The notes beneath the pieces are model-generated. The model was not told the DNA's origin and did not search any database. It saw only the letters and a list, made by a program, of their open reading frames with translations. Positions 1 through 64,000 of a stretch of DNA of 64,000 bases are shown piece by piece. A program made the translations under genes and the position numbers. Source of the DNA: Loxodes magnus. Its lineage: Eukaryota; Ciliophora; Karyorelictea; Loxodida; Loxodidae. Numbering within the stretch: the first letter of the stretch is position 1; each line of letters starts with the position of its first letter. Location of the stretch: assembly GCA_946699065.1 (NCBI GenBank), contig CAMPDV010000886.1, forward strand, positions 62,001 to 126,000, in the 5' to 3' direction.

Positions 1-14
1 GTGGAGATAAAACG

Positions 15-749
15 GTGAGACTATGGGACGTCAAAACAGGTACCTGTAAGACCATGAGTGGTCACACTAGTTCTGTATCATCTGTGGCTATATCCAGTGA
101 TTCAGAGTTCATCGTATCGGGAAGTTTAGATAAAACGGTGAGACTATATGACGTCAAAACAGGTACCTGTAAGACCATGAGTGGTCACACACATTATGTA
201 TCATCTGTGGCTATATCCAGTTATTCAGAGTTCATCGTATCGGGAAGTAGAAATTATACGGTGAGACTATGGGACGTCAAAACAGGTACCTGTAAGACCA
301 TGAGTGGTCACACTAGTTGTGTATCATCTGTGGCTATATCCAGTGATTCAGAGTTCATCGTATCGGGAAGTTTAGATAAAACGGTGAGACTATATGACGT
401 CAAAACAGGTACCTGTAAGACCATGAGTGGTCACACACATTATGTATCATCTGTGGCTATATCCAGTTATTCAGAGTTCATCGTATCGGGAAGTAGAAAT
501 TATACGGTGAGACTATGGGACGTCAAAACAGGTACCTGTAAGACCATGAGTGGTCACACTAGTTGTGTATCATCTGTGGCTATATCCAGTGATTCAGAGT
601 TCATCGTATCGGGAAGTGGAGATAAGACGGCGAGACTATGGGACGTCAAAACAGGTACCTGTAAGACCATGAGTGGTCACACTAGTTGTGTATCATCTGT
701 GGCTATATCCAGTGATTCAGAGTTCATCGTATCGGGAAGTCATGATTAG
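15..749 (+). pseudogene. Open WD40 run, about 6 blades
   Basis: This is the first run in the window and continues in frame from base 3, so its true start is outside or absent. Blades alternate TSS, THY and TSC after GH, with L, RNY, L, RNY and G in the slot before strand c. One blade has A for V in strand c (TARLWD). The pair THY-RNY / TSC-LDK is repeated twice, a local 2-monomer duplication. It ends at HD-TAG, one base from the HDK of neighbouring blades. A 244-residue stretch is short of a seven-bladed propeller. Confidence 0.7.
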
Positions 750-795
750 ACGGTGAGACTATGGGACGTCAAAACAGGTACCTGTAAGACCATGA

Positions 796-1983
796 GTGGT
801 CACACACATTATGTATCATGTGGCTATATCCAGTGATTCAGAGTTCATCGTATCGGGAAGTGGAGATAAGACGGTGAGACTATGGGACGTCAAAACAGGT
901 ACCTGTAAGACCATGAGTGGTCACACACATTATGTATCATCTGTGGCTATATCCAGTGATTCAGAGTTCATCGTATCGGGAAGTCATGATAAGACGGTGA
1001 GACTATATGACGTCAAAACAGGTACCTGTAAGACCATGAGTGGTCACACTAGTTGTGTATTATCTGTGGCTATATCCAGTTATTCAGAGTTCATCGTATC
1101 GGGAAGTCATGATAAGACGGTGAGACTATATGACGTCAAAACAGGTACCTGTAAGACCATGAGTGGTCACACTAGTTCTGTATCATCTGTGGCTATATCC
1201 AGTGATTCAGAGTTCATCGTATCGGGAAGTGGAGATAAAACGGTGAGACTATGGGACGTCAAAACAGGTACCTGTAAGACCATGAGTGGTCACACACATT
1301 ATGTATTATCTGTGGATATATCCAGTGATTCAGAGTTCATCGTATCGGGAAGTCATGATAAGACGGTGAGACTATATGACGTCAAAACAGGTACCTGTAA
1401 GACCATGAGTGGTCACACTAGTTCTGTATCATCTGTGGCTATATCCAGTGATTCAGAGTTCATCGTATCGGGAAGTGGAGATAAAACGGTGAGACTATGG
1501 GACGTCAAAACAGGTACCTGTAAGACCATGAGTGGTCACAATAGTTCTGTATCATCTGTGGCTATATCCAGTGATTCAGAGTTCATCGTATCGGGAAGTG
1601 GAGATAAGACGGTGAGACTATGGGACGTCAAGACAGGTACCTGTAAGACCATGAGTGGTCACACACATTATGTATCATCTGTGGCTATATGCAGTTATTC
1701 AGAGTTCATCGTATCGGGAAGTGGAGATAAGACGGTGAGACTATATGACGTCAAGACAGGTACCTGTAAGACCATGAGTGGTCACAATAGTTCTGTATCA
1801 TCTGTGGCTATATCCAGTGATTCAGAGTTCATCGTATCGGGAAGTTATGATAAGACGGTGAGACTATGGGACGTCAAAACAGGTACCTGTAAGACCATGA
1901 GTGGTCACACTAGTTGTGTATCATCTGTGGCTATATCCATGATTCAGAGTTCATCGTATCGGGAAGTTATGATTATACGGTGA
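796..1983 (+). pseudogene. Open WD40 run, about 9 blades, frameshift-bounded
   Basis: The run opens in a new phase because the monomer near 820 lacks two bases (TCATCTGTG became TCATGTG). Its first codons, up to YH, are therefore read out of the WD40 frame, and the real blade sequence begins at VAISS. The slot before Asp reads G, H, H, G, H, G, G, G, Y, with LYD in four blades. It is closed by a 1-nt deletion near 1938 (CCAGTGATT to CCATGATT), so the last dozen residues are also out of frame. Nine intact blades would suffice for one propeller. Confidence 0.7.
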
Positions 1984-2351
1984 GACTATGGGACGTCAAA
2001 ACAGGTAACTGTAAGACCATGAGTGGTCACACTAGTTCTGTATCATCTGTGGCTATATCCAGTGATTCAGAGTTCATCGTATCGGGAAGTTATGATAAGA
2101 CGGTGAGACTATATGACGTCAAGACAGGTACCTGTAAGACCATGAGTGGTCACAATAGTTCTGTATCATCTGTGGCTATATCCAGTGATTCAGAGTTCAT
2201 CGTATCGGGAAGTTATGATAAGACGGTGAGACTATGGGACGTCAAAACAGGTACCTGTAAGACCATGAGTGGTCACACTAGTTGTGTATCATCTGTGGCT
2301 ATATCCATGATTCAGAGTTCATCGTATCGGGAAGTTATGATTATACGGTGA
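1914..2351 (+). pseudogene. Short WD40 run between two 1-nt deletions
   Basis: The run lies between two identical 1-nt deletions (CCATGATT) near 1938 and 2308. These are 368 bp apart, which is three monomers minus one base. The second deletion is therefore a copy of the first made by tandem duplication of a 3-monomer segment. Blades carry YDY, YDK and YDK, and one VKTGNC (GGTAAC) that destroys the usual GGTACC. Y before Asp is rare elsewhere, which marks this as a local lineage. Confidence 0.7.
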
Positions 2352-2959: not shown

Positions 2960-2962
2960 ACG

Positions 2963-3820: not shown

Positions 3821-5122
3821 ACGGTGAGACTATGGGACGTCAAAACAGGTACCTGTAAGACCATGAGTGGTCACACAGATTGAGTATATGCTGTGGCTAT
3901 ATCCAGTGATTCAGAGTTCATCGTATCGGGAAGTTATGATTATACGGTGAGACTATGGGACGTCAAAACAGGTACCTGTAAGACCATGAGTGGTCACACA
4001 GATTGAGTATATGCTGTGGCTATATCCAGTGATTCAGAGTTCATCGTATCGGGAAGTTATGATAAGACGGTGAGACTATGGGACGTCAAAACAGGTACCT
4101 GTAAGACCATGAGTGGTCACACTAGTTCTGTATCATCTGTGGCTATATCCAGTTATTCAGAGTTCATCGTATCGGGAAGTAGAAATTATACGGTGAGACT
4201 ATGGGACGTCAAAACAGGTACCTGTAAGACCATGAGTGGTCACACACATTATGTATCATCTGTGGCTATATCCAGTGATTCAGAGTTCATCGTATCGGGA
4301 AGTAGAAATTATACGGTGAGACTATGGGACGTCAAAACAGGTACCTGTAAGACCATGAGTGGTCACACACATTATGTATCATCTGTGTCTATATCCAGTG
4401 ATTCAGAGTTCATCGTATCGGGAAGTCATGATAAGACGGTGAGACTATATGACGTCAAAACAGGTACCTGTAAGACCATGAGTGGTCACAATAGTTCTGT
4501 ATCATCTGTGGCTATATCCAGTTATTCAGAGTTCATCGTATCGGGAAGTGGAGATAAGACGGTGAGACTATGGGACGTCAAAACAGGTACCTGTAAGACC
4601 ATGAGTGGTCATACTTATTCTGTATCATCTGTGGCTATATCCAGTGATTCAGAGTTCATCGTATCGGGAAGTTGAGATAAGACGGTGAGACTATGGGACG
4701 TCAAAACAGGTACCTGTAAGACCATGAGTGGTCATACTTATTCTGTATCATCTGTGGCTATATCCAGTGATTCAGAGTTCATCGTATCGGGAAGTTGAGA
4801 TAAGACGGTGAGACTATGGGACGTCAAGACAGGTACCTGTAAGACCATGAGTGGTCACACACATTATGTATTATCTGTGGCTATATCCAGTTATTCAGAG
4901 TTCATCGTATCGGTAAGTTTAGATAAGACGGTGAGACTATATGACGTCAAAACAGGTACCTGTAAGACCATGAGTGGTCACACTAGTTCTGTATCATCTG
5001 TGGCTATATCCAGTGATTCAGAGTTCATCGTATCGGGAAGTTATGATTATACGGTGAGACTATGGGACGTCAAAACAGGTACCTGTAAGACCATGAGTGG
5101 TCACACAGATTGAGTATATGCT
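3821..5122 (+). pseudogene. WD40 runs broken by HTD-TGA and S-TGA-DK blades
   Basis: The stretch begins with two HTD-TGA blades (3.88 and 4.01 kb), then an open run at 4016-4675 of about five blades with TSS, THY, THY, NSS and TYS and RNY twice. Two successive blades then have TGA before Asp (about 4673 and 4796). A short run at 4808-5113 carries THY with VSVSLDK, then TSS and YDY, and ends at HTD-TGA. The TYS-TGA / THY-VSVSLDK-LYD order recurs at 7.8-8.0 kb, again 3075 bp away. Confidence 0.65.
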
Positions 5123-6895
5123 GTGGCTATATCCAGTGATTCAGAGTTCATCGTATCGGGAAGTCATGATAAGACGGTGAGACCATATGACGTCAAAACA
5201 GGTACCTGTAAGACCATGAGTGGTCACAATAGTTCTGTATCATCTGTGGCTATATCCAGTTATTCAGAGTTCATCGTATCGGGAAGTCATGATAAGACGG
5301 TGAGACTATATGACGTCAAAACAGGTACCTGTAAGACCATGAGTGGTCACACACATTATGTATCATCTGTGGCTATATGCAGTTATTCAGAGTTCATCGT
5401 ATCGGGAAGTAGAAATTATACGGTGAGACTATGGGACGTCAAAACAGGTACCTGTAAGACCATGAGTGGTCACACACATTATGTATCATCTGTGGCTATA
5501 TGCAGTTATTCAGAGTTCATCGTATCGGGAAGTAGAAATTATACGGTGAGACTATGGGACGTCAAAACAGGTACCTGTAAGACCATGAGTGGTCACACTA
5601 GTTGTGTATCATCTGTGGCTATATCCAGTGATTCAGAGTTCATCGTATCGGGAAGTCATGATAAGACGGTGAGACTATATGACGTCAAGACAGGTACCTG
5701 TAAGACCATGAGTGGTCACACACATTATGTATCATCTGTGGCTATATCCAGTGATTCAGAGTTCATCGTATCGGGAAGTTTAGATAAAACGGTGAGACTA
5801 TGGGACGTCAAAACAGGTACCTGTAAGACCATGAGTGGTCACACACATTATGTATCATCTGTGGCTATATCCAGTGATTCAGAGTTCATCGTATCGGGAA
5901 GTTTAGATAAAACGGTGAGACTATGGGACGTCAAAACAGGTACCTGTAAGACCATGAGTGGTCACACACATTATGTATCATCTGTGGCTATATCCAGTGA
6001 TTCAGAGTTCATCGTATCGGGAAGTCATGATAAGACGGTGAGACTATGGGACGTCAAAACAGGTACCTGTAAGACCATGAGTGGTCACACACATTATGTA
6101 TCATCTGTGTCTATATCCAGTGATTCAGAGTTCATCGTATCGGGAAGTAGAGATAAAACGGTGAGACTATGGGACGTCAAAACAGGTACCTGTAAGACCA
6201 TGAGTGGTCACACACATTATGTATTATCTGTGGATATATCCAGTGATTCAGAGTTCATCGTATCGGTAAGTTTAGATAAGACGGTGAGACTATGGGACGT
6301 CAAGACAGGTACCTGTAAGACCATGAGTGGTCACACACATTATGTATTATCTGTGGATATATCCAGTGATTCAGAGTTCATCGTATCGGGAAGTGGAGAT
6401 AAGACGGTGAGACTATGGGACGTCAAAACAGGTACCTGTAAGACCATGAGTGGTCACACTAGTTCTGTATCATCTGTGGCTATATCCAGTGATTCAGAGT
6501 TCATCGTATCGGGAAGTGGAGATAAGACGGTGAGACTATGGGACGTCAAAACAGGTACCTGTAAGACCATGAGTGGTCACACACATTATGTATCATCTGT
6601 GTCTATATCCAGTGATTCAGAGTTCATCGTATCGGGAAGTCATGATAAGACGGTGAGACTATTTGACGTCAAAACAGGTACCTGTAAGACCATGAGTGGT
6701 CACAATAGTTCTGTATCATCTGTGGCTATATCCAGTTATTCAGAGTTCATCGTATCGGGAAGTCATGATAAGACGGTGAGACTATATGACGTCAAAACAG
6801 GTACCTGTAAGACCATGAGTGATCACACTAGTTATGTATATGCTGTGGCTATATCCAGTGATTCAGAGTTCATCGTATCGGGAAGTCATGATTAG
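5123..6895 (+). pseudogene. Longest open WD40 run in the window, 590 codons, about 14 blades
   Basis: This run is long enough for two seven-bladed propellers. The slot before Asp reads H, H, R, R, H, L, L, H, R, L, G, G, H, H and then HD-TAG. Nine blades are THY, the rest NSS, TSC, TSS and a final DHTSYVYAV. It contains one RPYD (CTA to CCA, unique here), one LFD, and one VSVSLDK whose GGTAAGT looks like a splice donor. It opens after an HTD-TGA blade, with no recognisable start signal. If any part of the array still makes protein from one frame, this run and 20325-21998 are the best candidates. Confidence 0.7.
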
Positions 6896-7882: not shown

Positions 7883-9109
7883 GTGAGACTATGGGACGTC
7901 AAGACAGGTACCTGTAAGACCATGAGTGGTCACACACATTATGTATTATCTGTGGCTATATCCAGTTATTCAGAGTTCATCGTATCGGTAAGTTTAGATA
8001 AGACGGTGAGACTATATGACGTCAAAACAGGTACCTGTAAGACCATGAGTGGTCACACTAGTTGTGTATCATCTGTGGCTATATCCAGTGATTCAGAGTT
8101 CATCGTATCGGGAAGTGGAGATAAAACGGTGAGACTATGGGACGTCAAAACAGGTACCTGTAAGACCATGAGTGGTCACACACATTATGTATCATCTGTG
8201 GCTATATCCAGTTATTCAGAGTTCATCGTATCGGGAAGTCATGATAAGACGGTGAGACTATATGACGTCAAAACAGGTACCTGTAAGACCATGAGTGGTC
8301 ACAATAGTTCTGTATCATCTGTGGCTATATCCAGTTATTCAGAGTTCATCGTATCGGGAAGTCATGATAAGACGGTGAGACTATATGACGTCAAAACAGG
8401 TACCTGTAAGACCATGAGTGGTCACACACATTATGTATCATCTGTGGCTATATGCAGTTATTCAGAGTTCATCGTATCGGGAAGTAGAAATTATACGGTG
8501 AGACTATGGGACGTCAAAACAGGTACCTGTAAGACCATGAGTGGTCACACACATTATGTATCATCTGTGGCTATATGCAGTTATTCAGAGTTCATCGTAT
8601 CGGGAAGTAGAAATTATACGGTGAGACTATGGGACGTCAAAACAGGTACCTGTAAGACCATGAGTGGTCACACTAGTTGTGTATCATCTGTGGCTATATC
8701 CAGTGATTCAGAGTTCATCGTATCGGGAAGTCATGATAAGACGGTGAGACTATATGACGTCAAAACAGGTACCTGTAAGACCATGAGTGGTCACACACAT
8801 TATGTATCATCTGTGGCTATATCCAGTGATTCAGAGTTCATCGTATCGGGAAGTTTAGATAAAACGGTGAGACTATGGGACGTCAAAACAGGTACCTGTA
8901 AGACCATGAGTGGTCACACACATTATGTATCATCTGTGGCTATATCCAGTGATTCAGAGTTCATCGTATCGGGAAGTAGAAATTATACGGTGAGACTATG
9001 GGACGTCAAAACAGGTACCTGTAAGACCATGAGTGGTCACACTAGTTCTGTATCATCTGTGGCTATATCCAGTGATTCAGAGTTCATCGTATCGGGAAGT
9101 CATGATTAG
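7883..9109 (+). pseudogene. Open WD40 run, about 10 blades
   Basis: Blades after GH are THY, TSC, THY, NSS, THY, THY, TSC, THY, THY and TSS. The slot before Asp holds L (in VSVSLDK), G, H, H, RNY, RNY, H, L and RNY, then HD-TAG. Four or more blades are LYD. The block THY-ICSY-RNY twice, TSC-HDK-LYD, THY-LDK is also at 5.3-5.85 kb, 3075 bp upstream. Its distal part is repeated again 1966 bp downstream. Confidence 0.7.
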
Positions 9110-10425
9110 ACGGTGAGACTATGGGACGTCAAAACAGGTACCTGTAAGACCATGAGTGGTCACACTTATTCTGTATTATCTGTGGATATATCCAGTGATT
9201 CAGAGTTCATCGTATCGGGAAGTAGAGATAAGACGGTGAGACTATGGGACGTCAAGACAGGTACCTGTAAGACCATGAGTGGTCATACTTATTCTGTATC
9301 ATCTGTGGATATATCCAGTTATACAGAGTTCATCGTATCGGGAAGTAGAGATAAGACGGTGAGACTATGGGACGTCAAAACAGGTACCTGTAAGACCATG
9401 AGTGGTCATACTTATTCTGTATCATCTGTGGCTATATCCAGTTATTCAGAGTTCATCGTATCGGTAAGTTTAGATAAGACGGTGAGACTATGGGACGTCA
9501 AAACAGGTACCTGTAAGACCATGAGTGGTCACAATAGTTCTGTATCATCTGTGGCTATATCCAGTGATTCAGAGTTCATCGTATCGGGAAGTCATGATTA
9601 GACGGTGAGACTATGGGACGTCAAAACAGGTACCTGTAAGACCATGAGTGGTCACACACATTATGTATCATGTGGCTATATCCAGTGATTCAGAGTTCAT
9701 CGTATCGGGAAGTAGAGATAAGACGGTGAGACTATGGGACGTCAAGACAGGTACCTGTAAGACCATGAGTGGTCATACTTATTCTGTATCATCTGTGGAT
9801 ATATCCAGTTATACAGAGTTCATCGTATCGGGAAGTAGAGATAAGACGGTGAGACTATGGGACGTCAAGACAGGTACCTGTAAGACCATGAGTGGTCACA
9901 CACATTATGTATTATCTGTGGATATATCCAGTTATTCAGAGTTCATCGTATCGGTAAGTTTAGATAAGACGGTGAGACTATGGGACGTCAAAACAGGTAC
10001 CTGTAAGACCATGAGTGGTCACAATAGTTCTGTATCATCTGTGGCTATATCCAGTTATTCAGAGTTCATCGTATCGGGAAGTGGAGATAAGACGGTGAGA
10101 CTATGGGACGTCAAAACAGGTACCTGTAAGACCATGAGTGGTCATACTTATTCTGTATCATCTGTGGCTATATCCAGTGATTCAGAGTTCATCGTATCGG
10201 GAAGTTGAGATAAGACGGTGAGACTATGGGACGTCAAAACAGGTACCTGTAAGACCATGAGTGGTCACACACATTATGTATTATCTGTGGCTATATCCAG
10301 TGATTCAGAGTTCATCGTATCGGTAAGTCATGATTAGACGGTGAGACTATGGGACGTCAAAACAGGTACCTGTAAGACCATGAGTGGTCACACACATTAT
10401 GTATCATCTGTGGCTATATCCAGTT
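8460..10425 (+). repeat. 16-monomer higher-order repeat, copy 1 (1966 bp)
   Basis: Open runs, stops and the 2-nt-deleted monomer near 9670 recur in the same order exactly 1966 bp downstream, which is sixteen monomers minus the two deleted bases. The runs 9113-9601 and 9648-10208 translate identically to 11079-11567 and 11614-12174. Features inside are RDK blades with VDISSYTEF, VSVSLDK, and VSVSHD-TAG near 10336. Boundaries are approximate. The upstream edge is set where ICSY in copy 1 faces ISSY in copy 2. Confidence 0.85.
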
Positions 10426-12485
10426 ATTCAGAGTTCATCGTATCGGGAAGTAGAAATTATACGGTGAGACTATGGGACGTCAAAACAGGTACCTGTAAGA
10501 CCATGAGTGGTCACACACATTATGTATCATCTGTGGCTATATGCAGTTATTCAGAGTTCATCGTATCGGGAAGTAGAAATTATACGGTGAGACTATGGGA
10601 CGTCAAAACAGGTACCTGTAAGACCATGAGTGGTCACACTAGTTGTGTATCATCTGTGGCTATATCCAGTGATTCAGAGTTCATCGTATCGGGAAGTCAT
10701 GATAAGACGGTGAGACTATATGACGTCAAAACAGGTACCTGTAAGACCATGAGTGGTCACACACATTATGTATCATCTGTGGCTATATCCAGTGATTCAG
10801 AGTTCATCGTATCGGGAAGTTTAGATAAAACGGTGAGACTATGGGACGTCAAAACAGGTACCTGTAAGACCATGAGTGGTCACACACATTATGTATCATC
10901 TGTGGCTATATCCAGTGATTCAGAGTTCATCGTATCGGGAAGTAGAAATTATACGGTGAGACTATGGGACGTCAAAACAGGTACCTGTAAGACCATGAGT
11001 GGTCACACTAGTTCTGTATCATCTGTGGCTATATCCAGTGATTCAGAGTTCATCGTATCGGGAAGTCATGATTAGACGGTGAGACTATGGGACGTCAAAA
11101 CAGGTACCTGTAAGACCATGAGTGGTCACACTTATTCTGTATTATCTGTGGATATATCCAGTGATTCAGAGTTCATCGTATCGGGAAGTAGAGATAAGAC
11201 GGTGAGACTATGGGACGTCAAGACAGGTACCTGTAAGACCATGAGTGGTCATACTTATTCTGTATCATCTGTGGATATATCCAGTTATACAGAGTTCATC
11301 GTATCGGGAAGTAGAGATAAGACGGTGAGACTATGGGACGTCAAAACAGGTACCTGTAAGACCATGAGTGGTCATACTTATTCTGTATCATCTGTGGCTA
11401 TATCCAGTTATTCAGAGTTCATCGTATCGGTAAGTTTAGATAAGACGGTGAGACTATGGGACGTCAAAACAGGTACCTGTAAGACCATGAGTGGTCACAA
11501 TAGTTCTGTATCATCTGTGGCTATATCCAGTGATTCAGAGTTCATCGTATCGGGAAGTCATGATTAGACGGTGAGACTATGGGACGTCAAAACAGGTACC
11601 TGTAAGACCATGAGTGGTCACACACATTATGTATCATGTGGCTATATCCAGTGATTCAGAGTTCATCGTATCGGGAAGTAGAGATAAGACGGTGAGACTA
11701 TGGGACGTCAAGACAGGTACCTGTAAGACCATGAGTGGTCATACTTATTCTGTATCATCTGTGGATATATCCAGTTATACAGAGTTCATCGTATCGGGAA
11801 GTAGAGATAAGACGGTGAGACTATGGGACGTCAAGACAGGTACCTGTAAGACCATGAGTGGTCACACACATTATGTATTATCTGTGGATATATCCAGTTA
11901 TTCAGAGTTCATCGTATCGGTAAGTTTAGATAAGACGGTGAGACTATGGGACGTCAAAACAGGTACCTGTAAGACCATGAGTGGTCACAATAGTTCTGTA
12001 TCATCTGTGGCTATATCCAGTTATTCAGAGTTCATCGTATCGGGAAGTGGAGATAAGACGGTGAGACTATGGGACGTCAAAACAGGTACCTGTAAGACCA
12101 TGAGTGGTCATACTTATTCTGTATCATCTGTGGCTATATCCAGTGATTCAGAGTTCATCGTATCGGGAAGTTGAGATAAGACGGTGAGACTATGGGACGT
12201 CAAAACAGGTACCTGTAAGACCATGAGTGGTCACACACATTATGTATTATCTGTGGCTATATCCAGTGATTCAGAGTTCATCGTATCGGTAAGTCATGAT
12301 TAGACGGTGAGACTATGGGACGTCAAAACAGGTACCTGTAAGACCATGAGTGGTCACACACATTATGTATCATCTGTGGCTATATCCAGTTATTCAGAGT
12401 TCATCGTATCGGGAAGTAGAAATTATACGGTGAGACTATGGGACGTCAAAACAGGTACCTGTAAGACCATGAGTGGTCACACTAG
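10426..12485 (+). repeat. 16-monomer higher-order repeat, copy 2 (1966-bp offset)
   Basis: This is the tandem partner of the block ending near 10425. It includes the run 10341-11075 (in part), 11079-11567, 11614-12174 and the same VSVSHD-TAG near 12302. Similarity fades after the RNY blade near 12.45 kb, where TSC replaces THY. The identical translations over several hundred codons, including stops and the 2-nt deletion, indicate a recent duplication that copied already broken monomers. Confidence 0.85.
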
Positions 12486-37800: not shown

Positions 37801-40002
<2,202 letters not shown>

Positions 40003-42586: not shown

Positions 42587-42954
42587 GTATATGCTGTGGC
42601 TATATCCAGTGATTCAGAGTTCATCGTATCGGGAAGTTGAGATAAGACGGTGAGACTATGGGACGTCAAGACAGGTACCTGTAAGACCATGAGTGGTCAT
42701 AAAAGTTCTGTATTATCTGTGGCTATATCCAGTGATTCAGAGTTCATCGTATCGGGAAGTTGAGATAAGACGGTGAGACTATGGGACGTCAAGACAGGTA
42801 CCTGTAAGACCATGAGTGGTCACACTAGTTAGGTATATGCTGTGGCTATATCCAGTGATTCAGAGTTCATCGTATCGGGAAGTTGAGATAAGACGGTGAG
42901 ACTATGGGACGTCAAGACAGGTACCTGTAAGACCATGAGTGGTCACACAGATTG

Positions 42955-47045: not shown

Positions 47046-49880
47046 AGTTCATCGTATCGGGAAGTAGAGATAAGACGGTGAGACTATGGGACGTCAAGAC
47101 AGGTACCTGTAAGACCATGAGTTGTCGCACAGGTTCTGTATTATCTGTGGCTATATCCAGTGATTCAGAGTTCATCGTATCGGGAAGTCATGATAAGACG
47201 GTGAGACTATGGGACGTCAAGACAGGTACCTGTAAGACCATGAGTGGTCATAAAAGTTCTGTATTATCTGTGGCTATATCCAGTGATTCAGAGTTCATCG
47301 TATCGGGAAGTTTAGATAAGACGGTGAGACTATGGGACGTCAAGACAGGTACCTGTAAGACCATGAGTTGTCGCACAGGTTCTGTATTATCTGTGGCTAT
47401 ATCCAGTGATTCAGAGTTCATCGTATCGGGAAGTTGAGATAAGACGGTGAGACTATGGGACGTCAAGACAGGTACCTGTAAGACCATGAGTGGTCATAAA
47501 AGTTCTGTATCATCTGTGGCTATATCCAGTTATTCAGAGTTCATCGTATCGGGAAGTAGAAATTATACGGTGAGACTATGGGACGTCAAGACAGGTACCT
47601 GTAAGACCATGAGTGGTCATAAAAGTTCTGTATTATCTGTGGCTATATCCAGTGATTCAGAGTTCATCGTATCGGGAAGTAGAGATAAAACGGTGAGACT
47701 ATGGGACGTCAAGACAGGTACCTGTAAGACCATGAGTGGTCACACAGATTGAGTATATGCTGTGGCTATATCCAGTGATTCAGAGTTCATCGTATCGGGA
47801 AGTAGAGATAAGACGGTGAGACTATGGGACGTCAAGACAGGTACCTGTAAGACCATGAGTGGTCACACTAGTTGTGTATCATCTGTGGCTATATCCAGTG
47901 ATTCAGAGTTCATCGTATCGGGAAGTTTAGATAAAACGGTGAGACTATGGGACGTCAAAACAGGTACCTGTAAGACCATGAGTGGTCACACTAGTTCTGT
48001 ATCATCTGTGGCTATATCCAGTGATTCAGAGTTCATCGTATCGGGAAGTCATGATAAGACGGTGAGACTATGGGACGTCAAAACAGGTACCTGTAAGACC
48101 ATGAGTGGTCATAAAAGTTCTGTAATATCTGTGGCTATATCCAGTGATTCAGAGTTCATCGTATCGGGAAGTGATGATAAGACGGTGAGACTATGGGACG
48201 TCATGACAGGTACCTGTAAGACCATGAGTGGTCACACAGATTGAGTATATGCTGTGGCTATATCCAGTGATTCAGAGTTCATCGTATCGGGAAGTTGAGA
48301 TAAGACGGTGAGACTATGGGACGTCAAGACAGGTACCTGTAAGACCATGAGTGGTCATAAAAGTTCTGTATTATCTGTGGCTATATCCAGTGATTCAGAG
48401 TTCATCGTATCGGGAAGTTGAGATAAGACGGTGAGACTATGGGACGTCAAGACAGGTACCTGTAAGACCATGAGTGGTCACACTAGTTAGGTATATGCTG
48501 TGGCTATATCCAGTGATTCAGAGTTCATCGTATCGGGAAGTTGAGATAAGACGGTGAGACTATGGGACGTCAAGACAGGTACCTGTAAGACCATGAGTGG
48601 TCACACAGATTGAGTATATGCTGTGGCTATATCCAGTGATTCAGAGTTCATCGTATCGGGAAGTTTAGATAAGACGGTGAGACTATGGGACGTCAAGACA
48701 GGTACCTGTAAGACCATGAGTGGTCACACTTATTCTGTATCATCTGTGGCTATATCCAGTGATTCAGAGTTCATCGTATCGGGAAGTTGAGATAAGACGG
48801 TGAGACTATGGGACGTCAAGACAGGTACCTGTAAGACCATGAGTGGTCACACAGATTGAGTATATGCTGTGGCTATATCCAGTGATTCAGAGTTCATCGT
48901 ATCGGGAAGTTGAGATAAGACGGTGAGACTATGGGACGTCAAGACAGGTACCTGTAAGACCATGAGTGGTCATAAAAGTTCTGTATTATCTGTGGCTATA
49001 TCCAGTGATTCAGAGTTCATCGTATCGGGAAGTTGAGATAAGACGGTGAGACTATGGGACGTCAAGACAGGTACCTGTAAGACCATGAGTGGTCACACTA
49101 GTTAGGTATATGCTGTGGCTATATCCAGTTATACAGAGTTCATCGTATCGGGAAGTTGAGATAAGACGGTGAGACTATGGGACGTCAAGACAGGTACCTG
49201 TAAGACCATGAGTGGTCATAAAAGTTCTGTATTATCTGTGGCTATATCCAGTGATTCAGAGTTCATCGTATCGGGAAGTTGAGATAAGACGGTGAGACTA
49301 TGGGACGTCAAGACAGGTACCTGTAAGATCATGAGTGGTCACACTAGTTAGGTATATGCTGTGGCTATATCCAGTGATTCAGAGTTCATCGTATCGGGAA
49401 GTTGAGATAAGACGGTGAGACTATGGGACGTCAAGACAGGTACCTGTAAGATCATGAGTGGTCACACTAGTTAGGTATATGCTGTGGCTATATCCAGTGA
49501 TTCAGAGTTCATCGTATCGGGAAGTTGAGATAAGACGGTGAGACTATGGGACGTCAAGACAGGTACCTGTAAGACCATGAGTGGTCACGCTTATTCTGTA
49601 TTATCTGTGAATATATCCAGTGATTCAGAGTTCATCGTATCGGGAAGTTGAGATAAGACGGTGAGACTATGGGACGTCAAGACAGGTACCTGTAAGACCA
49701 TGAGTGGTCATAAAAGTTCTGTATTATCTGTGGCTATATCCAGTGATTCAGAGTTCATCGTATCGGGAAGTTGAGATAAGACGGTGAGACTATGGGACGT
49801 CAAGACAGGTACCTGTAAGACCATGAGTGGTCACACAGGATCTGTATTATCTGTGGATATATCCAGTTATTCAGAGTTCA
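47046..49880 (+). repeat. 23-monomer higher-order repeat unit B (2829 bp)
   Basis: Tandem copy of the preceding unit. It holds the runs 46955-47437 (in part), 47447-47752 and 47762-48244, with the same translations as in unit A. From 48245 the stop-dense half begins: KSS-TGA, HTS-TAG, HTD-TGA, LDK-TYS-TGA, HTD-TGA, KSS-TGA, HTS-TAG with TATACA, KSS-TGA, two KIM-HTS-TAG blades, AYS-LSVN-TGA, KSS-TGA, TGS. Copied stops show the units were already broken when duplicated. Confidence 0.82.
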
Positions 49881-51259
49881 TCGTATCGGGAAGTTGAGAT
49901 AAGACGGTGAGACTATGGGACGTCAAGACAGGTACCTGTAAGACCATGAGTGGTCACACAGGATCTGTATTATCTGTGGATATATCCAGTGATTCAGAGT
50001 TCATCGTATCGGGAAGTTGAGATAAGACGGTGAGACTATGGGACGTCAAGACAGGTACCTGTAAGACCATGAGTTGTCGCACAGGTTCTGTATTATCTGT
50101 GGCTATATCCAGTGATTCAGAGTTCATCGTATCGGGAAGTTGAGATAAGACGGTGAGACTATGAGACGTCAAGACAGGTACCTGTAAGACCATGAGTGGT
50201 CACACTAGTTAGGCATATGCTGTGGCTATATCCAGTGATTCAGAGTTCATCGTATCGGGAAGTTGAGATAAGACGGTGAGACTATGGGACGTCAAGACAG
50301 GTACCTGTAAGACCATGAGTGGTCACACAGGATCTGTATTATCTGTGGATATATCCAGTTATACAGAGTTCATCGTATCGGGAAGTTGAGATAAGACGGT
50401 GAGACTATGGGACGTCAAGACAGGTACCTGTAAGACCATGAGTGGTCATAAAAGTTCTGTATTATCTGTGGCTATATCCAGTGATTCAGAGTTCATCGTA
50501 TCGGGAAGTTGAGATAAGACGGTGAGACTATGGGACGTCAAGACAGGTACCTGTAAGACCATGAGTGGTCACACAGATTGAGTATATGCTGTGGCTATAT
50601 CCAGTGATTCAGAGTTCATCGTATCGGGAAGTTGAGATAAGACGGTGAGACTATGGGACGTCAAGACAGGTACCTGTAAGACCATGAGTGGTCACACAGA
50701 TTGAGTATATGCTGTGGCTATATCCAGTGATTCAGAGTTCATCGTATCGGGAAGTTGAGATAAGACGGTGAGACTATGGGACGTCAAGACAGGTACCTGT
50801 AAGACCATGAGTGGTCACACAGATTGAGTATATGCTGTGGCTATATCCAGTGATTCAGAGTTCATCGTATCGGGAAGTGATGATAAGACGGTGAGACTAT
50901 GGGACGTCAAGACAGGTACCTGTAAGACCATGAGTGGTCATAAAAGTTCTGTATTATCTGTGGATATATCCAGTGATTCAGAGTTCATCGTATCGGGAAG
51001 TTGAGATAAGACGGTGAGACTATGGGACGTCAAGACAGGTACCTGTAAGATCATGAGTGGTCACACTTATTCTGTATCATCTGTGGCTATATCCAGTGAT
51101 TCAGAGTTCATCGTATCGGGAAGTTGAGATAAGACGGTGAGACTATGGGACGTCAAGACAGGTACCTGTAAGACCATGAGTGGTCACACTTATTCTGTAT
51201 CATCTGTGGCTATATCCAGTGATTCAGAGTTCATCGTATCGGGAAGTTGAGATAAGACG
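49880..51259 (+). repeat. Stop-dense WD40 monomers, no run of 60 codons
   Basis: Blades TGS, TGS, CRTGS, HTS-TAG (here with GCATATGCT, near 50215), TGS-SSYTEF, KSS, three HTD-TGA in a row, DDK-KSS-LSVD, KIM-TYS and TYS. Nearly all have TGA before Asp, and one has L-TGA-D near 50162. The order TGS-TGA-CRTGS-TGA followed by L-TGA-D recurs near 62.6-62.8 kb. Nothing other than repeat is visible. Confidence 0.8.
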
Positions 51260-53390
51260 GTGAGACTATGGGACGTCAAGACAGGTACCTGTAAGACCAT
51301 GAGTGGTCATAAAAGTTCTGTATTATCTGTGGCTATATCCAGTGATTCAGAGTTCATCGTATCGGGAAGTGATGATAAGACGGTGAGACTATGGGACGTC
51401 AAGACAGGTACCTGTAAGACCATGAGTGGTCAAAAAAGTTCTGTATTATCTGTGGCTATATCCAGTGATTCAGAGTTCATCGTATCGGGAAGTTGAGATA
51501 AGACGGTGAGACTATGGGACGTCAAGACAGGTACCTGTAAGACCATGAGTGGTCATAAAAGTTCTGTATCATCTGTGAATATATCCAGTGATTCAGAGTT
51601 CATCGTATCGGGAAGTAGAGATAAGACGGTGAGACTATGGGACGTCAAGACAGGTACCTGTAAGACCATGAGTGGTCATAAAAGTTCTGTATTATCTGTG
51701 GCTATATCCAGTGATTCAGAGTTCATCGTATCGGGAAGTTGAGATAAGACGGTGAGACTATGGGACGTCAAGACAGGTACCTGTAAGACCATGAGTGGTC
51801 ACACTTATTCTGTATCATCTGTGGCTATATCCAGTGATTCAGAGTTCATCGTATCGGGAAGTTTAGATAAGACGGTGAGACTATGGGACGTCAAGACAGG
51901 TACCTGTAAGATCATGAGTGGTCACACTAGTTGTGTATCATCTGTGGCTATATCCAGTGATTCAGAGTTCATCGTATCGGGAAGTGGAGATAAGACGGCG
52001 AGACTATGGGACGTCAAAACAGGTACCTGTAAGACCATGAGTGGTCACACTAGTTGTGTATTATCTGTGGCTATATCCAGTGATTCAGAGTTCATCGTAT
52101 CGGGAAGTAGAGATAAGACGGTGAGACTATGGGACGTCAAGACAGGTACCTGTAAGACCATGAGTGGTCACACAGGATCTGTATTATCTGTGGATATATC
52201 CAGTTATTCAGAGTTCATCGTATCGGGAAGTTGAGATAAGACGGTGAGACTATGGGACGTCAAGACAGGTACCTGTAAGACCATGAGTGGTCACACTTAT
52301 TCTGTATTATCTGTGGCTATATCCAGTGATTCAGAGTTCATCGTATCGGGAAGTTGAGATAAGACGGTGAGACTATGGGACGTCAAGACAGGTACCTGTA
52401 AGACCATGAGTGGTCACACAGATTGAGTATATGCTGTGGCTATATCCAGTGATTCAGAGTTCATCGTATCGGGAAGTTGAGATAAGACGGTGAGACTATG
52501 GGACGTCAAGACAGGTACCTGTAAGACCATGAGTGGTCATAAAAGTTCTGTATTATCTGTGGCTATATCCAGTAATTCAGAGTTCATCGTATCGGGAAGT
52601 TGAGATAAGACGGTGAGACTATGGGACGTCAAGACAGGTACCTGTAAGACCATGAGTGGTCATAAAAGTTCTGTATTATCTGTGGCTATATCCAGTGATT
52701 CAGAGTTCATCGTATCGGGAAGTGATGATAAGACGGTGAGACTATGGGACGTCAAGACAGGTACCTGTAAGACCATGAGTGGTCACGCTTATTCTGTATT
52801 ATCTGTGAATATATCCAGTGATTCAGAGTTCATCGTATCGGGAAGTAGAGATAAGACGGTGAGACTATGGGACGTCAAGACAGGTACCTGTAAGACCATG
52901 AGTGGTCATAAAAGTTCTGTATTATCTGTGGATATATCCAGTGATTCAGAGTTCATCGTATCGGGAAGTTTAGATAAGACGGTGAGACTATGGGACGTCA
53001 AGACAGGTACCTGTAAGACCATGAGTGGTCATAAAAGTTCTGTATTATCTGTGGATATATCCAGTTATACAGAGTTCATCGTATCGGGAAGTTGAGATAA
53101 GACGGTGAGACTATGGGACGTCAAGACAGGTACCTGTAAGACCATGAGTGGTCACACAGGATCTGTATTATCTGTGGCTATATCCAGTGATTCAGAGTTC
53201 ATCGTATCGGGAAGTTGAGATAAGACGGTGAGACTATGGGACGTCAAGACAGGTACCTGTAAGATCATGAGTGGTCACACTTATTCTGTATCATCTGTGG
53301 CTATATCCAGTGATTCAGAGTTCATCGTATCGGGAAGTTTAGATAAAACGGTGAGACTATGGGACGTCAAGACAGGTACCTGTAAGACCA
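51260..53390 (+). pseudogene. Short and medium WD40 runs, right family
   Basis: Runs are 51260-51496, 51506-51742, 51752-52234 (160 codons, with the KIM-TSC-GDKTA-TSC-RDK-TGS cassette), 52613-53095 (160 codons: KSS-DDK, AYS-LSVN-RDK, KSS-LSVD-LDK, KSS-SSYTEF) and the start of 53228-53476. They are separated by TGA before Asp. One blade near 52.57 kb has ISSN (AGTAAT for AGTGAT) and one near 51.43 kb has GQKSS. All share one phase up to the 1-nt deletion near 53412. Confidence 0.65.
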
Positions 53391-54480
53391 TGAGTCGTCA
53401 CACTAGTTCTGTATATCTGTGGCTATATCCAGTGATTCAGAGTTCATCGTATCGGGAAGTTGAGATAAGACGGTGAGACTATGGGACGTCAAGACAGGTA
53501 CCTGTAAGACCATGAGTGGTCACGTCAAGACAGGTACCTGTAAGACCATGAGTCATAAAAGTTCTGTATTATCTGTGGCTATATCCAGTGATTCAGAGTT
53601 CATCGTATCGGGAAGTGATGATAAGACGGTGAGACTATGGGACGTCAAGACAGGTACCTGTAAGACCATGAGTGGTCATAAAAGTTCTGTATTATCTGTG
53701 GATATATCCAGTTATTCAGAGTTCATCGTATCGGGAAGTTGAGATAAGACGGTGAGACTATGGGACGTCAAGACAGGTACCTGTAAGACCATGAGTGGTC
53801 GCACAGGTTCTGTATTATCTGTGGCTATATCCAGTGATTCAGAGTTCATCGTATCGGGAAGTTGAGATAAGACGGTGAGACTATGGGACGTCAAGACAGG
53901 TACCTGTAAGACCATGAGTGGTCATAAAAGTTCTGTATTATCTGTGGCTATATCCAGTGATTCAGAGTTCATCGTATCGGGAAGTTGAGATAAGACGGTG
54001 AGACTATGGGATTCAGAGTTCATCGTAAACGTCATGAGTGGTCATAAAAGTTCTGTATTATCGGGAAGTTTAGATAAGACGGTGAGACTATGGGACGTCA
54101 AGACAGGTACCTGTAAGACCATGAGTGGTCATAAAAGTTCTGTATTATCTGTGGATATATCCAGTTATACAGAGTTCATCGTATCGGTAAGTTTAGATAA
54201 GACGGTGAGACTATGGGACGTCAAGACAGGTACCTGTAAGACCATGAGTGGTCATAAAAGTTCTGTATTATCTGTGGATATATCCAGTGATTCAGAGTTC
54301 ATCGTATCGGGAAGTTTAGATAAGACGGTGAGACTATGGGACGTCAAGACAGGTACCTGTCATGAGTGGTCATAAAAGTTCTGTATTATCTGTGGATATA
54401 TCCAGTTATACAGAGTTCATCGTATCGGGAAGTTGAGATTGAGACTATGGGACGTCAAGACAGGTATCATGAGTGGTCAC
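53390..54480 (+). repeat. Scrambled patch with abnormal monomer lengths
   Basis: Monomer length breaks down here as nowhere else. There is a 1-nt deletion near 53412 (GTATATCTG). Near 53.52-53.55 kb 33 bases are added by re-copying the [10 protein letters not shown] segment, giving [17 protein letters not shown]. At 53998-54081 an 84-bp monomer has FIVN spliced after RLWDSE and then [13 protein letters not shown]. Near 54360 five bases are lost after TGT, near 54438 seven bases after GAGAT, and near 54466 nine bases after GGTA. The last three sum to 21, so the frame is regained. The joins fall at short shared words, suggesting repair or template-switch events. Confidence 0.8.
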
Positions 54481-55851
54481 ACAGGATCTGTATTATCTGT
54501 GGCTATATCCAGTGATTCAGAGTTCATCGTATCGGGAAGTTGAGATAAGACGGTGAGACTATGGGACGTCAAGACAGGTACCTGTAAGATCATGAGTGGT
54601 CACACTTATTCTGTATCATCTGTGGCTATATCCAGTGATTCAGAGTTCATCGTATCGGGAAGTTTAGATAAAACGGTGAGACTATGGGACGTCAAGACAG
54701 GTACCTGTAAGACCATGAGTCGTCACACTAGTTCTGTATCATCTGTGGCTATATCCAGTGATTCAGAGTTCATCGTATCGGGAAGTGGAGATAAAACGGT
54801 GAGACTATGGGACGTCAAAACAGGTACCTGTAAGACCATGAGTGGTCATAAAAGTTCTGTATTATCTGTGGCTATATCCAGTGATTCAGAGTTCATCGTA
54901 TCGGGAAGTTGAGATAAGACGGTGAGACTATGGGACGTCAAGACAGGTACCTGTAAGACCATGAGTGGTCATAAAAGTTCTGTATTATCTGTGGCTATAT
55001 CCAGTGATTCAGAGTTCATCGTATCGGGAAGTGATGATAAGACGGTGAGACTATGGGACGTCAAGACAGGTACCTGTAAGACCATGAGTGGTAACACTTA
55101 TTCTGTATTATCTGTGTCTATATCCAGTGATTCAGAGTTCATCGTATCGGGAAGTTGAGATAAGACGGTGAGACTATGGGACGTCAAGACAGGTACCTGT
55201 AAGACCATGAGTTGTCGCACAGGTTCTGTATTATCTGTGGCTATATCCAGTGATTCAGAGTTCATCGTATCGGGAAGTTGAGATAAGACGGTGAGACTAT
55301 GGGACGTCAAGACAGGTACCTGTAAGACCATGAGTGGTCATAAAAGTTCTGTATTATCTGTGGCTATATCCAGTGATTCAGAGTTCATCGTATCGGGAAG
55401 TTTAGATAAGACGGTGAGACTATGGGACGTCAAGACAGGTACCTGTAAGACCATGAGTGGTCATAAAAGTTCTGTATTATCTGTGGATATATCCAGTTAT
55501 ACAGAGTTCATCGTATCGGTAAGTTTAGATAAGACGGTGAGACTATGGGACGTCAAGACAGGTACCTGTAAGACCATGAGTGGTCACACTGGATCTGTAT
55601 CATCTGTGGCTATATCCAGTGATTCAGAGTTCATCGTATCGGGAAGTTGAGATAAGACGGTGAGACTATGGGACGTCAAGACAGGTACCTGTAAGACCAT
55701 GAGTGGTCACACTGGATCTGTATCATCTGTGGCTATATCCAGTGATTCAGAGTTCATCGTATCGGGAAGTTGAGATAAGACGGTGAGACTATGGGACGTC
55801 AAGACAGGTACCTGTAAGACCATGAGTGGTCACACAGATTGAGTATATGCT
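54480..55851 (+). pseudogene. WD40 runs after the scrambled patch
   Basis: 54553-54912 (119 codons) repeats the order seen at 53.13-53.47 kb 1325 bp earlier: TGS-TGA, KIM-TYS-LDK with AAA, then the rare SRHTSS form (AGTCGTCAC). This time the frame stays open through TSS-GDK-KSS. Runs at 54922-55158 (ending GNTYS-LSVSIS-TGA) and 55291-55650 (KSS-LDK, KSS-SSYTEF-VSVSLDK, TGS) follow. The GN form replaces the GH histidine by Asn. Confidence 0.65.
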
Positions 55852-59595: not shown

Positions 59596-61773
59596 GTGAG
59601 ACTATGGGACGTCAAGACAGGTACCTGTAAGACCATGAGTGGTCATAAAAGTTCTGTATTATCTGTGGATATATCCAGTTATACAGAGTTCATCGTATCG
59701 GGAAGTAGAGATAAGACGGTGAGACTATGGGACGTCAAGACAGGTACCTGTAAGACCATGAGTGGTCACACTTATTCTGTATCATCTTTGAATATATCCA
59801 GTGATTCAGAGTTCATCGTATCGGGAAGTAGAGATAAGACGGTGAGACTATGGGACGTCAAGACAGGTACCTGTAAGACCATGAGTGGTCACACTTATTC
59901 TGTATCATCTGTGGCTATATCCAGTTATTCAGAGTTCATCGTATCGGGAAGTAGAGATAAGACGGTGAGACTATGGGACGTCAAGACAGGTACCTGTAAG
60001 ACCATGAGTGGTCATGAAAGTTCTGTATTATCTGTGGATATATCCAGTTATACAGAGTTCATCGTATCGGGAAGTTTAGATAAGACGGTGAGACTATGGG
60101 ACGTCAAGACAGGTACCTGTAAGACCATGAGTGGTCACACTTATTCTGTATCATCTGTAGCTATATCCAGTGATTCAGAGTTCATCGTATCGGGAAGTTT
60201 AGATAAGACGGTGAGACTATGGGACGTCAAAACAGGTACCTGTAAGACCATGAGTGGTAACACTTATTCTGTATTATCTGTGAATATATCCAGTGATTCA
60301 GAGTTCATCGTATCGGGAAGTTGAGATAAGACGGTGAGACTATGGGACGTCAAGACAGGTACCTGTAAGACCATGAGTGGTCATAAAAGTTCTGTATTAT
60401 CTGTGGATATATCCAGTTATACAGAGTTCATCGTATCGGGAAGTAGAGATAAGACGGTGAGACTATGGGACGTCAAGACAGGTACCTGTAAGACCATGAG
60501 TGGTCACACTTATTCTGTATCATCTTTGAATATATCCAGTGATTCAGAGTTCGTCGTATCGGGAAGTTTAGATAAGACGGTGAGACTATGGGACGTCAAG
60601 ACAGGTACCTGTAAGACCATGAGTGGTCATAAAAGTTCTGTATTATCTGTGGATATATCCAGTTATACAGAGTTCATCGTATCGGGAAGTAGAGATAAGA
60701 CGGTGAGACTATGGGACGTCAAGACAGGTACCTGTAAGACCATGAGTGGTCACACTTATTCTGTATCATCTTTGAATATATCCAGTGATTCAGAGTTCGT
60801 CGTATCGGGAAGTTTAGATAAGACGGTGAGACTATGGGACGTCAAGACAGGTACCTGTAAGACCATGAGTGGTCATAAAAGTTCTGTATTATCTGTGGAT
60901 ATATCCAGTTATACAGAGTTCATCGTATCGGGAAGTAGAGATAAGACGGTGAGACTATGGGACGTCAAGACAGGTACCTGTAAGACCATGAGTGGTCACA
61001 CTTATTCTGTATTATCTGTGGCTATATCCAGTGATTCAGAGTTCATCGTATCGGGAAGTTGAGATAAGACGGTGAGACTATGGGACGTCAAGACAGGTAC
61101 CTGTAAGACCATGAGTGGTCACACAGGATCTGTATTATCTGTGGATATATCCAGTGATTCAGAGTTCATCGTATCGGGAAGTTTAGATAAGACGGTGAGA
61201 CTATGGGACGTCAAGACAGGTACCTGTAAGACCATGAGTGGTCACACTTATTCTGTATCATCTGTAGCTATATCCAGTGATTCAGAGTTCATCGTATCGG
61301 GAAGTTTAGATAAGACGGTGAGACTATGGGACGTCAAAACAGGTACCTGTAAGACCATGAGTGGTAACACTTATTCTGTATTATCTGTGAATATATCCAG
61401 TGATTCAGAGTTCATCGTATCGGGAAGTTGAGATAAGACGGTGAGACTATGGGACGTCAAGACAGGTACCTGTAAGACCATGAGTGGTCATAAAAGTTCT
61501 GTATTATCTGTGGATATATCCAGTTATACAGAGTTCATCGTATCGGGAAGTAGAGATAAGACGGTGAGACTATGGGACGTCAAGACAGGTACCTGTAAGA
61601 CCATGAGTGGTCACACTTATTCTGTATCATCTGTGGCTATATCCAGTGATTCAGAGTTCATCGTATCGGGAAGTAGAGATAAGACGGTGAGACTATGGGA
61701 CGTCAAGACAGGTACCTGTAAGACCATGAGTGGTCACACTGGATCTGTATCATCTGTGGCTATATCCATGTGA
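59596..61773 (+). pseudogene. WD40 runs with 9-monomer and 2-monomer duplications
   Basis: 59596-60324 and 60334-61062 are 242 codons each; 61072-61431 and 61441-61773 follow, separated only by TGA before Asp in one phase. A 2-monomer cycle (246 bp) KSS-SSYTEF-RDK / TYS-SSLN-EFVVSGS-LDK repeats between about 60.34 and 60.90 kb. A 9-monomer (1107-bp) offset links about 60.08-60.51 kb to 61.18-61.62 kb and includes the synonymous GTA before GCT (near 60158 and 61265). The block ends at a 1-nt insertion (CCATGTGATT near 61768). Confidence 0.7.
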
Positions 61774-64000
61774 TTCAGAGTTCATCGTATCGGGAAGTGA
61801 TGATAAGACGGTGAGACTATGGGACGTCAAGACAGGTACCTGTAAGACCATGAGTGGTCATAAAAGTTCTGTATTATCTGTGGATATATCCAGTTATACA
61901 GAGTTCATCGTATCGGGAAGTAGAGATAAGACGGTGAGACTATGGGACGTCAAGACAGGTACCTGTAAGACCATGAGTGGTCACACAGGATCTGTATTAT
62001 CTGTGGATATATCCAGTGATTCAGAGTTCATCGTATCGGGAAGTTGAGATAAGACGGTGAGACTATGGGACGTCAAGACAGGTACCTGTAAGACCATGAG
62101 TTGTCGCACAGGTTCTGTATTATCTGTGGCTATATCCAGTGATTCAGAGTTCATCGTATCGGGAAGTCATGATAAGACGGTGAGACTATGGGACGTCAAG
62201 ACAGGTACCTGTAAGACCATGAGTGGTCATAAAAGTTCTGTATTATCTGTGAATATATCCAGTGATTCAGAGTTCATCGTATCGGGAAGTTGAGATAAGA
62301 CGGTGAGACTATGGGACGTCAAGACAGGTACCTGTAAGACCATGAGTGGTCATAAAAGTTCTGTATTATCTGTGGCTATATCCAGTGATTCAGAGTTCAT
62401 CGTATCGGGAAGTTGAGATAAGACGGTGAGACTATGGGACGTCAAGACAGGTACCTGTAAGACCATGAGTGGTCACACTTATTCTGTATCATCTGTGGCT
62501 ATATCCAGTTATTCAGAGTTCATCGTATCGGGAAGTTGAGATAAGACGGTGAGACTATGGGACGTCAAGACAGGTACCTGTAAGACCATGAGTGGTCACA
62601 CAGGATCTGTATTATCTGTGGATATATCCAGTGATTCAGAGTTCATCGTATCGGGAAGTTGAGATAAGACGGTGAGACTATGGGACGTCAAGACAGGTAC
62701 CTGTAAGACCATGAGTTGTCGCACAGGTTCTGTATTATCTGTGGCTATATCCAGTGATTCAGAGTTCATCGTATCGGGAAGTTGAGATAAGACGGTGAGA
62801 CTATGAGACGTCAAGACAGGTACCTGTAAGACCATGAGTGGTCACACTAGTTGTGTATCATCTGTGGCTATATCCAGTGATTCAGAGTTCATCGTATCGG
62901 GAAGTTTAGATAAAACGGTGAGACTATGGGACGTCAAAACAGGTACCTGTAAGACCATGAGTGGTCACACTAGTTCTGTATCATCTGTGGCTATATCCAT
63001 GTGATTCAGAGTTCATCGTATCGGGAAGTCATGATAAGACGGTGAGACTATGGGACGTCAAAACAGGTACCTGTAAGACCATGAGTGGTCATAAAAGTTC
63101 TGTATTATCTGTGGCTATATCCAGTGATTCAGAGTTCATCGTATCGGGAAGTTTAGATAAGACGGTGAGACTATGGGACGTCATGACAGGTACCTGTAAG
63201 ACCATGAGTGGTCACACAGATTGAGTATATGCTGTGGCTATATCCAGTGATTCAGAGTTCATCGTATCGGGAAGTTTAGATAAGACGGTGAGACTATGGG
63301 ACGTCAAGACAGGTACCTGTAAGACCATGAGTGGTCACACTTATTCTGTATCATCTGTGGCTATATCCAGTGATTCAGAGTTCATCGTATCGGGAAGTTT
63401 AGATAAGACGGTGAGACTATGGGACGTCAAGACAGGTACCTGTAAGACCATGAGTGGTCACACTGGATCTGTATCATCTGTGGCTATATCCAGTGATTCA
63501 GAGTTCATCGTATCGGGAAGTTGAGATAAGACGGTGAGACTATGGGACGTCAAGACAGGTACCTGTAAGACCATGAGTGGTCACACTTATTCTGTATCAT
63601 CTGTGGCTATATCCAGTGATTCAGAGTTCATCGTATCGGGAAGTTGAGATAAGACGGTGAGACTATGGGACGTCAAGACAGGTACCTGTAAGACCATGAG
63701 TGGTCACACAGGATCTGTATTATCTGTGGCTATATCCAGTTATTCAGAGTTCATCGTATCGGGAAGTTTAGATAAGACGGTGAGACTATGGGACGTCAAG
63801 ACAGGTACCTGTAAGATCATGAGTGGTCACACTAGTTAGGTATATGCTGTGGCTATATCCAGTGATTCAGAGTTCATCGTATCGGGAAGTTGAGATAAGA
63901 CGGTGAGACTATGGGACGTCAAGACAGGTACCTGTAAGATCATGAGTGGTCACACTAGTTAGGTATATGCTGTGGCTATATCCAGTGATTCAGAGTTCAT
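61730..64000 (+). pseudogene. Last WD40 runs, cut by the window edge
   Basis: Two monomers carry the same 1-nt insertion (CCATGTGATT near 61768 and 62998) and move the frame each time. Runs are 61730-62047, 62057-62293, 62961-63224 (ending VMTG / HTD-TGA), 63234-63524 and 63657-63839. Between 62294 and 62960 TGA before Asp and one L-TGA-D (near 62806) interrupt. A left-type TSC-LDK-TSS-HDK island lies at 62.84-63.07 kb. The window ends inside an HTS-TAG-type monomer, so the array continues beyond it. Confidence 0.65.

Follow-up and report, generated by a model that had tools for sequence, protein, structure and literature searches.

A satellite-scale tandem array of WD40 blade-coding units in the ciliate Loxodes magnus, with codon diversity at the positions under high dN/dS in fungal HNWD repeats

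Organization of the array

We analysed a WD40-coding tandem array in the karyorelict ciliate Loxodes magnus, which fills a stretch of 64,000 bp of contig CAMPDV010000886.1 (GenBank assembly GCA_946699065.1, positions 62,001 to 126,000 of the forward strand). This stretch is referred to below as the window, and coordinates are counted from its first base.

1 to 64000, plus strand: WD40-coding tandem array with a 123-bp unit (41 amino acids), 522 units, from Tandem Repeats Finder (TRF), wraparound alignment and Pfam (PF00400)

A single array from 4 to 64000 was reported by TRF, with a period of 123 bp, 520.9 copies and 92% matches, and wraparound alignment to one 123-bp consensus assigned 63,821 of the 64,000 bases to 522 units, of which 520 are interior and two are cut by the window edges, one on either side. 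Both results bear out an earlier reading of the letters alone (hereafter the sequence-only reading), according to which a WD40 satellite of about 520 monomers extends from edge to edge; its count of 518 monomers between bases 15 and 63657 is exact, as the two positions lie in the same phase and 518 turns apart. The window thus holds, across 4 to 64000, a long tandem array that is not interspersed with other DNA, and since both edges lie inside it, the true array is longer than the window. Interior units are 123 bp long in 488 cases, 121 bp in 21, 122 bp in five and 124 bp in two, while the remaining four measure 156, 84, 111 and 114 bp. Agreement with the consensus amounts to 95.1% of bases and falls to 71.5% in the poorest 123-bp stretch (at 53497). 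Units differ from each other by about nine mismatches per 123 on average, and 218 distinct unit sequences were counted, 111 of them found once. The sites GGTACC (KpnI) and GACGTC (AatII), said to occur once per unit, are each present 519 times and are mostly 123 bp apart (486 of 518 spacings for KpnI and 485 of 518 for AatII). No Rfam family was found in the window at threshold.

WD40 identity and predicted fold

Read in frame, the unit is a 41-amino-acid WD40 blade, with TGA at codon 34 in the consensus used. Two open reading frames (ORFs) contain 14 and 13 PF00400 stretches, and for the longest ORF the best 25 of 50 Pfam matches are all WD40 or beta-propeller models.

5123 to 6895, plus strand: longest standard-code ORF, 590 amino acids, about 14 blades (ORF scan, Pfam)
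5114 to 5976, plus strand: stop-free stretch of 287 amino acids, seven units long, used for structure prediction

The seven-unit stretch was predicted to fold as a propeller, with a predicted local distance difference test (pLDDT) of 94.5 and a predicted template modelling score (pTM) of 0.92, from an alignment that consisted of the window stretch and six of nine related loci in prokaryote genomes (bacterial relatives, see below). Compared with solved structures, the model matched 5mzh first by E-value (template modelling score, TM, 0.81) and the seven-bladed 7bie with a TM of 0.93. By its Pfam matches the array unit is a good WD40 blade belonging to PF00400, and by the predicted model it is one that would form propellers.

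Diversity is concentrated at the variable positions of HNWD repeats

Only units of exactly 123 bp (488 of 522) entered the codon statistics. The five codons of highest entropy among the 41 are codons 34, 15, 14, 16 and 18. In the HNWD repeats of the fungus Podospora anserina, a high ratio of nonsynonymous to synonymous substitutions (dN/dS) is reported at positions 10, 11, 12, 14, 30, 32 and 39 (PMC12222747), and PMC1805685 gives positions 7, 9, 25 and 27 of an older numbering as the strongest and places the selected position pairs in the d-a loop and the b-c turn. The Podospora spacing fits the array best, among 41 offsets, when positions 10, 11, 12, 14, 30 and 32 fall on codons 14, 15, 16, 18, 34 and 36, and position 39 on codon 2, a register that was set by the spacing, the loop placement and the conserved residue inside each pair, without the Podospora repeat sequence itself. 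All top five codons are then among the seven Podospora positions (hypergeometric p = 2.8e-5), as are five of the top eight (p = 1.4e-3); a Mann-Whitney test gave p = 9e-4, and permutation p values were 5e-6 with all seven positions and 8e-4 with only the four strongest. In the predicted model, codons 14-16 are located in the d-a loop and codons 34-36 in the b-c turn, while codon 18 belongs largely to strand a. The seven codons have a mean diversity of 0.286, and 17 fourfold framework sites one of 0.0017. Besides those of codons 3 and 13, nearly all framework synonymous sites are almost invariant, and codon 3 largely separates the two halves of the array that are described below. It is the position of the variation, more than its ratio of nonsynonymous to synonymous diversity (piN/piS), that speaks for past diversifying selection.

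Rare codons, here those with one or two copies among the 488 units, are distributed differently: only one of 16 is at the seven positions, vs 22 of 38 common variants (Fisher p = 6e-4). As rare variants are seldom found at the hot codons and common ones often are, the focusing looks old. Ongoing targeted mutation of the hot codons was considered and rejected, because rare codons show no enrichment there and no significant depletion either (1 of 16, where the expected share is 0.154; p = 0.49). Fourteen rare codons are nonsynonymous and two synonymous, where the opportunities are 267 and 86, and on this small sample the framework now shows no sign of purifying selection.

The broken reading frame and its stops

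Under the standard code, 189 of the 488 full-length units carry an in-frame stop, and 219 of the 520 interior units are broken when frameshifts are counted as well, in agreement with the earlier statement that the array is broken by stops. All 21 units of 121 bp share one CT deletion, in every case on the same variant block, and three further one-base changes are each present twice. Units carrying stops or frameshifts are found repeatedly in the array, just as other units are. These recurring breaks, together with the small sample of rare codons, suggest that the array is not maintained as coding sequence and has no coding role at present.

Within the 488 full-length units the stops are placed like the diversity, with 221 of 232 in-frame stops at hot codons, and in-frame TGA is confined to codons 16, 34 and 41. 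TGA at codon 34 alone is carried by 128 units in 33 backgrounds, and at equal sampling its background diversity (12.2) resembles that of the sense codons TTA (12.3), AGA (12.8), CAT (10.7) and GGA (9.7), while the other stops have fewer backgrounds. It was therefore probably part of the variant pool through much of the shuffling, so that either the shuffling came after the loss of the frame or TGA encodes an amino acid. TGA is also the commonest codon at this most variable position, one base away from AGA, GGA and TTA. The nearly complete confinement of stops to hot codons, the coincidence of the variable codons with the fungal HNWD positions of high dN/dS, and the division of the array into two halves go beyond what had been read from the letters.

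In each half, the units with GAT at codon 15 are as many as those with TGA at codon 16 (7 and 7; 44 and 44), and in 50 of 51 cases GAT-TGA forms a single block followed by GTA TAT GCT. For comparison, blades of bacterial relatives were collected from 15 loci with two motifs, a strict one allowing tryptophan, tyrosine or phenylalanine at codon 41 (39 blades from 12 loci) and a looser one with tryptophan fixed there (112 blades from 14 loci). In the strict set, tryptophan at codon 16 together with aspartate at codon 15 was seen once where 2.5 were expected, and this lack of association counts against the GAT-TGA block being a usual aspartate-tryptophan pair.

Duplications and the two halves of the array

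8455 to 12482, plus strand: exact duplication of 2,062 bp, lag 1,966 bp (16 units)
15074 to 19105, plus strand: exact duplication of 1,949 bp, lag 2,083 bp (17 units)
44211 to 49894, plus strand: longest exact duplication, with identical copies of 2,855 bp at 44211 and 47040, lag 2,829 bp (23 units)
1 to 32000, plus strand: half A, with AAA common at codon 3, CAT-TAT common at codons 15-16, and all 21 units of 121 bp
32000 to 64000, plus strand: half B, with AAG common at codon 3, CAT-AAA common at codons 13-14, and higher GC skew
53363 to 54564, plus strand: 1.2 kb with scrambled junctions and units of 122, 156, 84, 111 and 114 bp, five of the nine interior units in half B that deviate in length

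The copies at 44211 and 47040 are 99.0% identical across 3,632 bp. Higher-order lags, at which identical pairs are more frequent than at others, are 16/17 units in half A and 23/24 units in half B, and in half B 109 of 246 full units have TGA at codon 34. The variant sets change over gradually, at about 27-34 kb; where they change, at about 32000, GC skew rises from about 0.18 to about 0.26. Neighbouring units differ on average by 8.15 mismatches and units more than 240 apart by 9.99. The association between variant blocks (excess normalised mutual information) is about 0.14 inside a unit, 0.06 with the next one and about 0.02-0.03 at a distance of two units; in half B it still amounts to 0.025 at five units. 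Exact copies, higher-order lags and local likeness together form the pattern expected of unequal exchange with local homogenisation, which we infer to be the mechanism at work. The units directly preceding and following the stretch with scrambled junctions resemble each other (53117-53363 and 54451-54688); the stretch may be a local rearrangement or an assembly error.

Relatives and comparable systems

Related proteins were found in 302 records of the plasmid collection (best identity 47.8%), at nine loci of the prokaryote genomes (28-44% identical) and in two records of the phage collection (32% and 39%); a peptide pattern search found none among the viral contigs. At the DNA level, a limited probe (window 1-2000) had no match in the phage and plasmid collections, and equally limited probes, one exact 26-base pattern in the viral contigs and one exact 23-base pattern in the prokaryote genomes, had none either; within the limits of such probes, a prokaryotic or viral source is unlikely. 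The closest protein relatives in the plasmid collection are bacterial NB-ARC/NACHT-WD40 and caspase-WD40 proteins of cyanobacterial and other plasmids, which are annotated as ordinary genes and lack a DNA-level match to window 1-2000. On an Acaryochloris plasmid (L010, 343 to 6315) the related WD40 gene directly adjoins a gene for a tyrosine-type recombinase/integrase.

Among eukaryotic systems, the HNWD/NWD genes of Podospora anserina (het-d, het-e and het-r, encoding NLRs) share with the array near-identical WD40 units, and the Podospora literature describes concerted evolution by unequal exchange, the mechanism proposed here, as well as stops and pseudogene members within the family. Like HNWD repeats, the units combine high identity with diversity focused on the seven positions of high dN/dS (though codon 2 is invariant and codon 36 only ninth by entropy), but they do not lie in an open reading frame (219 of the 520 interior units being broken under the standard code), and whereas HNWD genes usually have about 11 repeats behind a NACHT domain, the array consists of more than 520 units of 41 amino acids with no other domain in the window. 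PMC4986451 gives 21 WD repeats as the maximum for fungal NLR candidates, which agrees with the remark in the sequence-only reading that protein-coding WD40 arrays usually comprise tens of units at most. No comparable WD40 array of satellite scale was found among the matches listed in a literature search by title and start of abstract, a search that most subscription journals lie outside.

Near-identical blades forming propellers are also known from 2ymu, a highly repetitive WD40 protein, and from the designed proteins 7bie (WRAP-T) and Tako8; 2ymu and designed propellers count among the top PDB matches by sequence and by fold. Unlike the array, they are either short genes with an intact frame or designed proteins, and in fold alignments they share 35-39% identity with the modelled stretch. 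With higher-order-repeat satellite DNA the array has in common its long head-to-tail arrangement, local homogenisation, lags and exact duplicated blocks, but its unit is a recognisable protein blade with diversity at particular codons.

Origin of the array

The explanation to which we lean, and which we rate at somewhat better than an even chance, is that a receptor-type WD40 blade exon became a satellite and that old binding-surface diversity was carried along. The process would have begun with an exon coding for WD40 blades in a rapidly evolving protein of recognition type (NLR/STAND-like, HNWD-like), amplified to satellite scale by unequal crossing-over and short-tract exchange. Homogenisation would have left the shared framework almost uniform, while a stock of blade variants differing at ligand-facing codons, presumably diversified in an earlier phase of selection, was carried along and reshuffled; released from its reading frame, the array would now evolve as a satellite. 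The interpretation offered by the sequence-only reading is, as a whole, partly supported: the part that sees a coding repeat turned into a satellite fits the good blade, the recurring broken units and, on a small sample, rare codons that show no sign of purifying selection.

Several observations weigh against descent from a receptor exon followed by decay. No receptor domain, start or promoter was seen within the 64-kb window, both edges of which are inside the array. WD40 loops vary generally, so that the match to Podospora need not mean a receptor; codon 2, the counterpart of position 39 in Podospora, is invariant, codon 36 ranks only ninth by entropy, and for the four strongest positions alone a rival offset comes close (0.295 vs 0.318). 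With stops excluded, piN/piS is only 1.27 for the whole unit (1.77 at the hot codons and 0.76 in the rest), and the low framework diversity refers to fourfold sites only, codons 3 and 13 having common synonymous variants (AAA/AAG and CAC/CAT). Finally, TGA at codon 34 is shuffled like the sense alleles, which is not predicted for a late, purely degenerative stop.

Research on satellite arrays and research on the repeat domains of innate recognition receptors usually go separate ways, and this array links the two. If it is the relic of a receptor exon, it would show the homogenise-and-diversify process of such receptors running away; if instead it serves as a donor, it would constitute a large germline library for recognition. 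In either case, the map of diversity over 41 codons would make the question of relic or donor testable given the genome.

The donor alternative is unlikely; in it, intact receptor genes elsewhere (at least one) would receive sequence through conversion from a silent archive of variant blades. Silent cassettes act as donors in other antigen or receptor systems. Diversity focused on ligand-facing codons within a near-invariant framework would favour conversion, the rapid drop of variant-block association with unit distance would follow from frequent shuffling, and the stops and frameshifts would be tolerated, since donors from which only short tracts are copied can keep them. Repeat exchange between Podospora family loci, pseudogenes included, has been proposed (PMC1805685 and PMC12222747). 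However, no recipient gene was seen in the window, rare variants, which are presumably recent, show no concentration at the hot codons (1 of 16), and the higher-order duplications alone may account for the shuffling. That more than 520 blades feed new specificities into an intact recognition receptor, as a genomic blade library for innate recognition, appears slightly less probable still.

An altered genetic code, with TGA read as tryptophan and perhaps TAG as glutamine, would leave much of the array open, and we regard it as improbable. In its favour, codon 41 is the tryptophan of the 'LWD' motif and is tryptophan in 39 of 39 strict-motif bacterial blades, and in the looser set tryptophan is the commonest residue at codon 16 (42 of 112) and present at codon 34 (10 of 112); glutamine is the best fit for TAG at codons 16 plus 36, and the backgrounds of TGA at codon 34 are as varied as those of sense alleles. 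Broken interior units would fall to 76 of 520 with TGA as sense and to 29 of 520 with TAG as well, the longest frame reaching 2,476 and 5,010 amino acids respectively, and in half B the longest open run with TGA as sense (59 units) exceeds that of shuffles (mean 34, p = 0.0185), which favours the altered code a little. Against it, the score for glutamate at codons 16 plus 34 is slightly higher than that for tryptophan (2.34 vs 2.09), TGG is absent from both codons, TAG also occurs at codon 31, a conserved serine, and the frameshifts persist and recur under any code. With TGA and TAG both as sense the minus strand is open as well, over 4,920 codons at 38949-53711, probably as a mechanical result of the repeat.

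Equally improbable is an assembly artefact, in which the assembler would have enlarged a smaller array or disturbed its order. Assembly errors are known to arise in tandem arrays, and the five odd-length units with scrambled junctions inside 1.2 kb at 53363-54564 may be an instance. But 218 of the units are distinct and 111 of these are singletons, no exact copy is longer than 2,855 bp and so there is no large-scale verbatim looping, and errors would be scattered, whereas all 21 instances of the CT deletion are on a single variant block.

That the array is still a gene, yielding WD40 proteins from its open stretches or with the broken units spliced out, is very improbable: although nine standard-code ORFs of at least 300 and up to 590 amino acids would suffice for one or two propellers, and open runs in half B are slightly more uneven than in shuffles of its own units (summed squares, p = 0.04), the longest open run stays within the shuffle range in both halves (p = 0.63 and 0.33) and the rare codons stand at 14 nonsynonymous to two synonymous.

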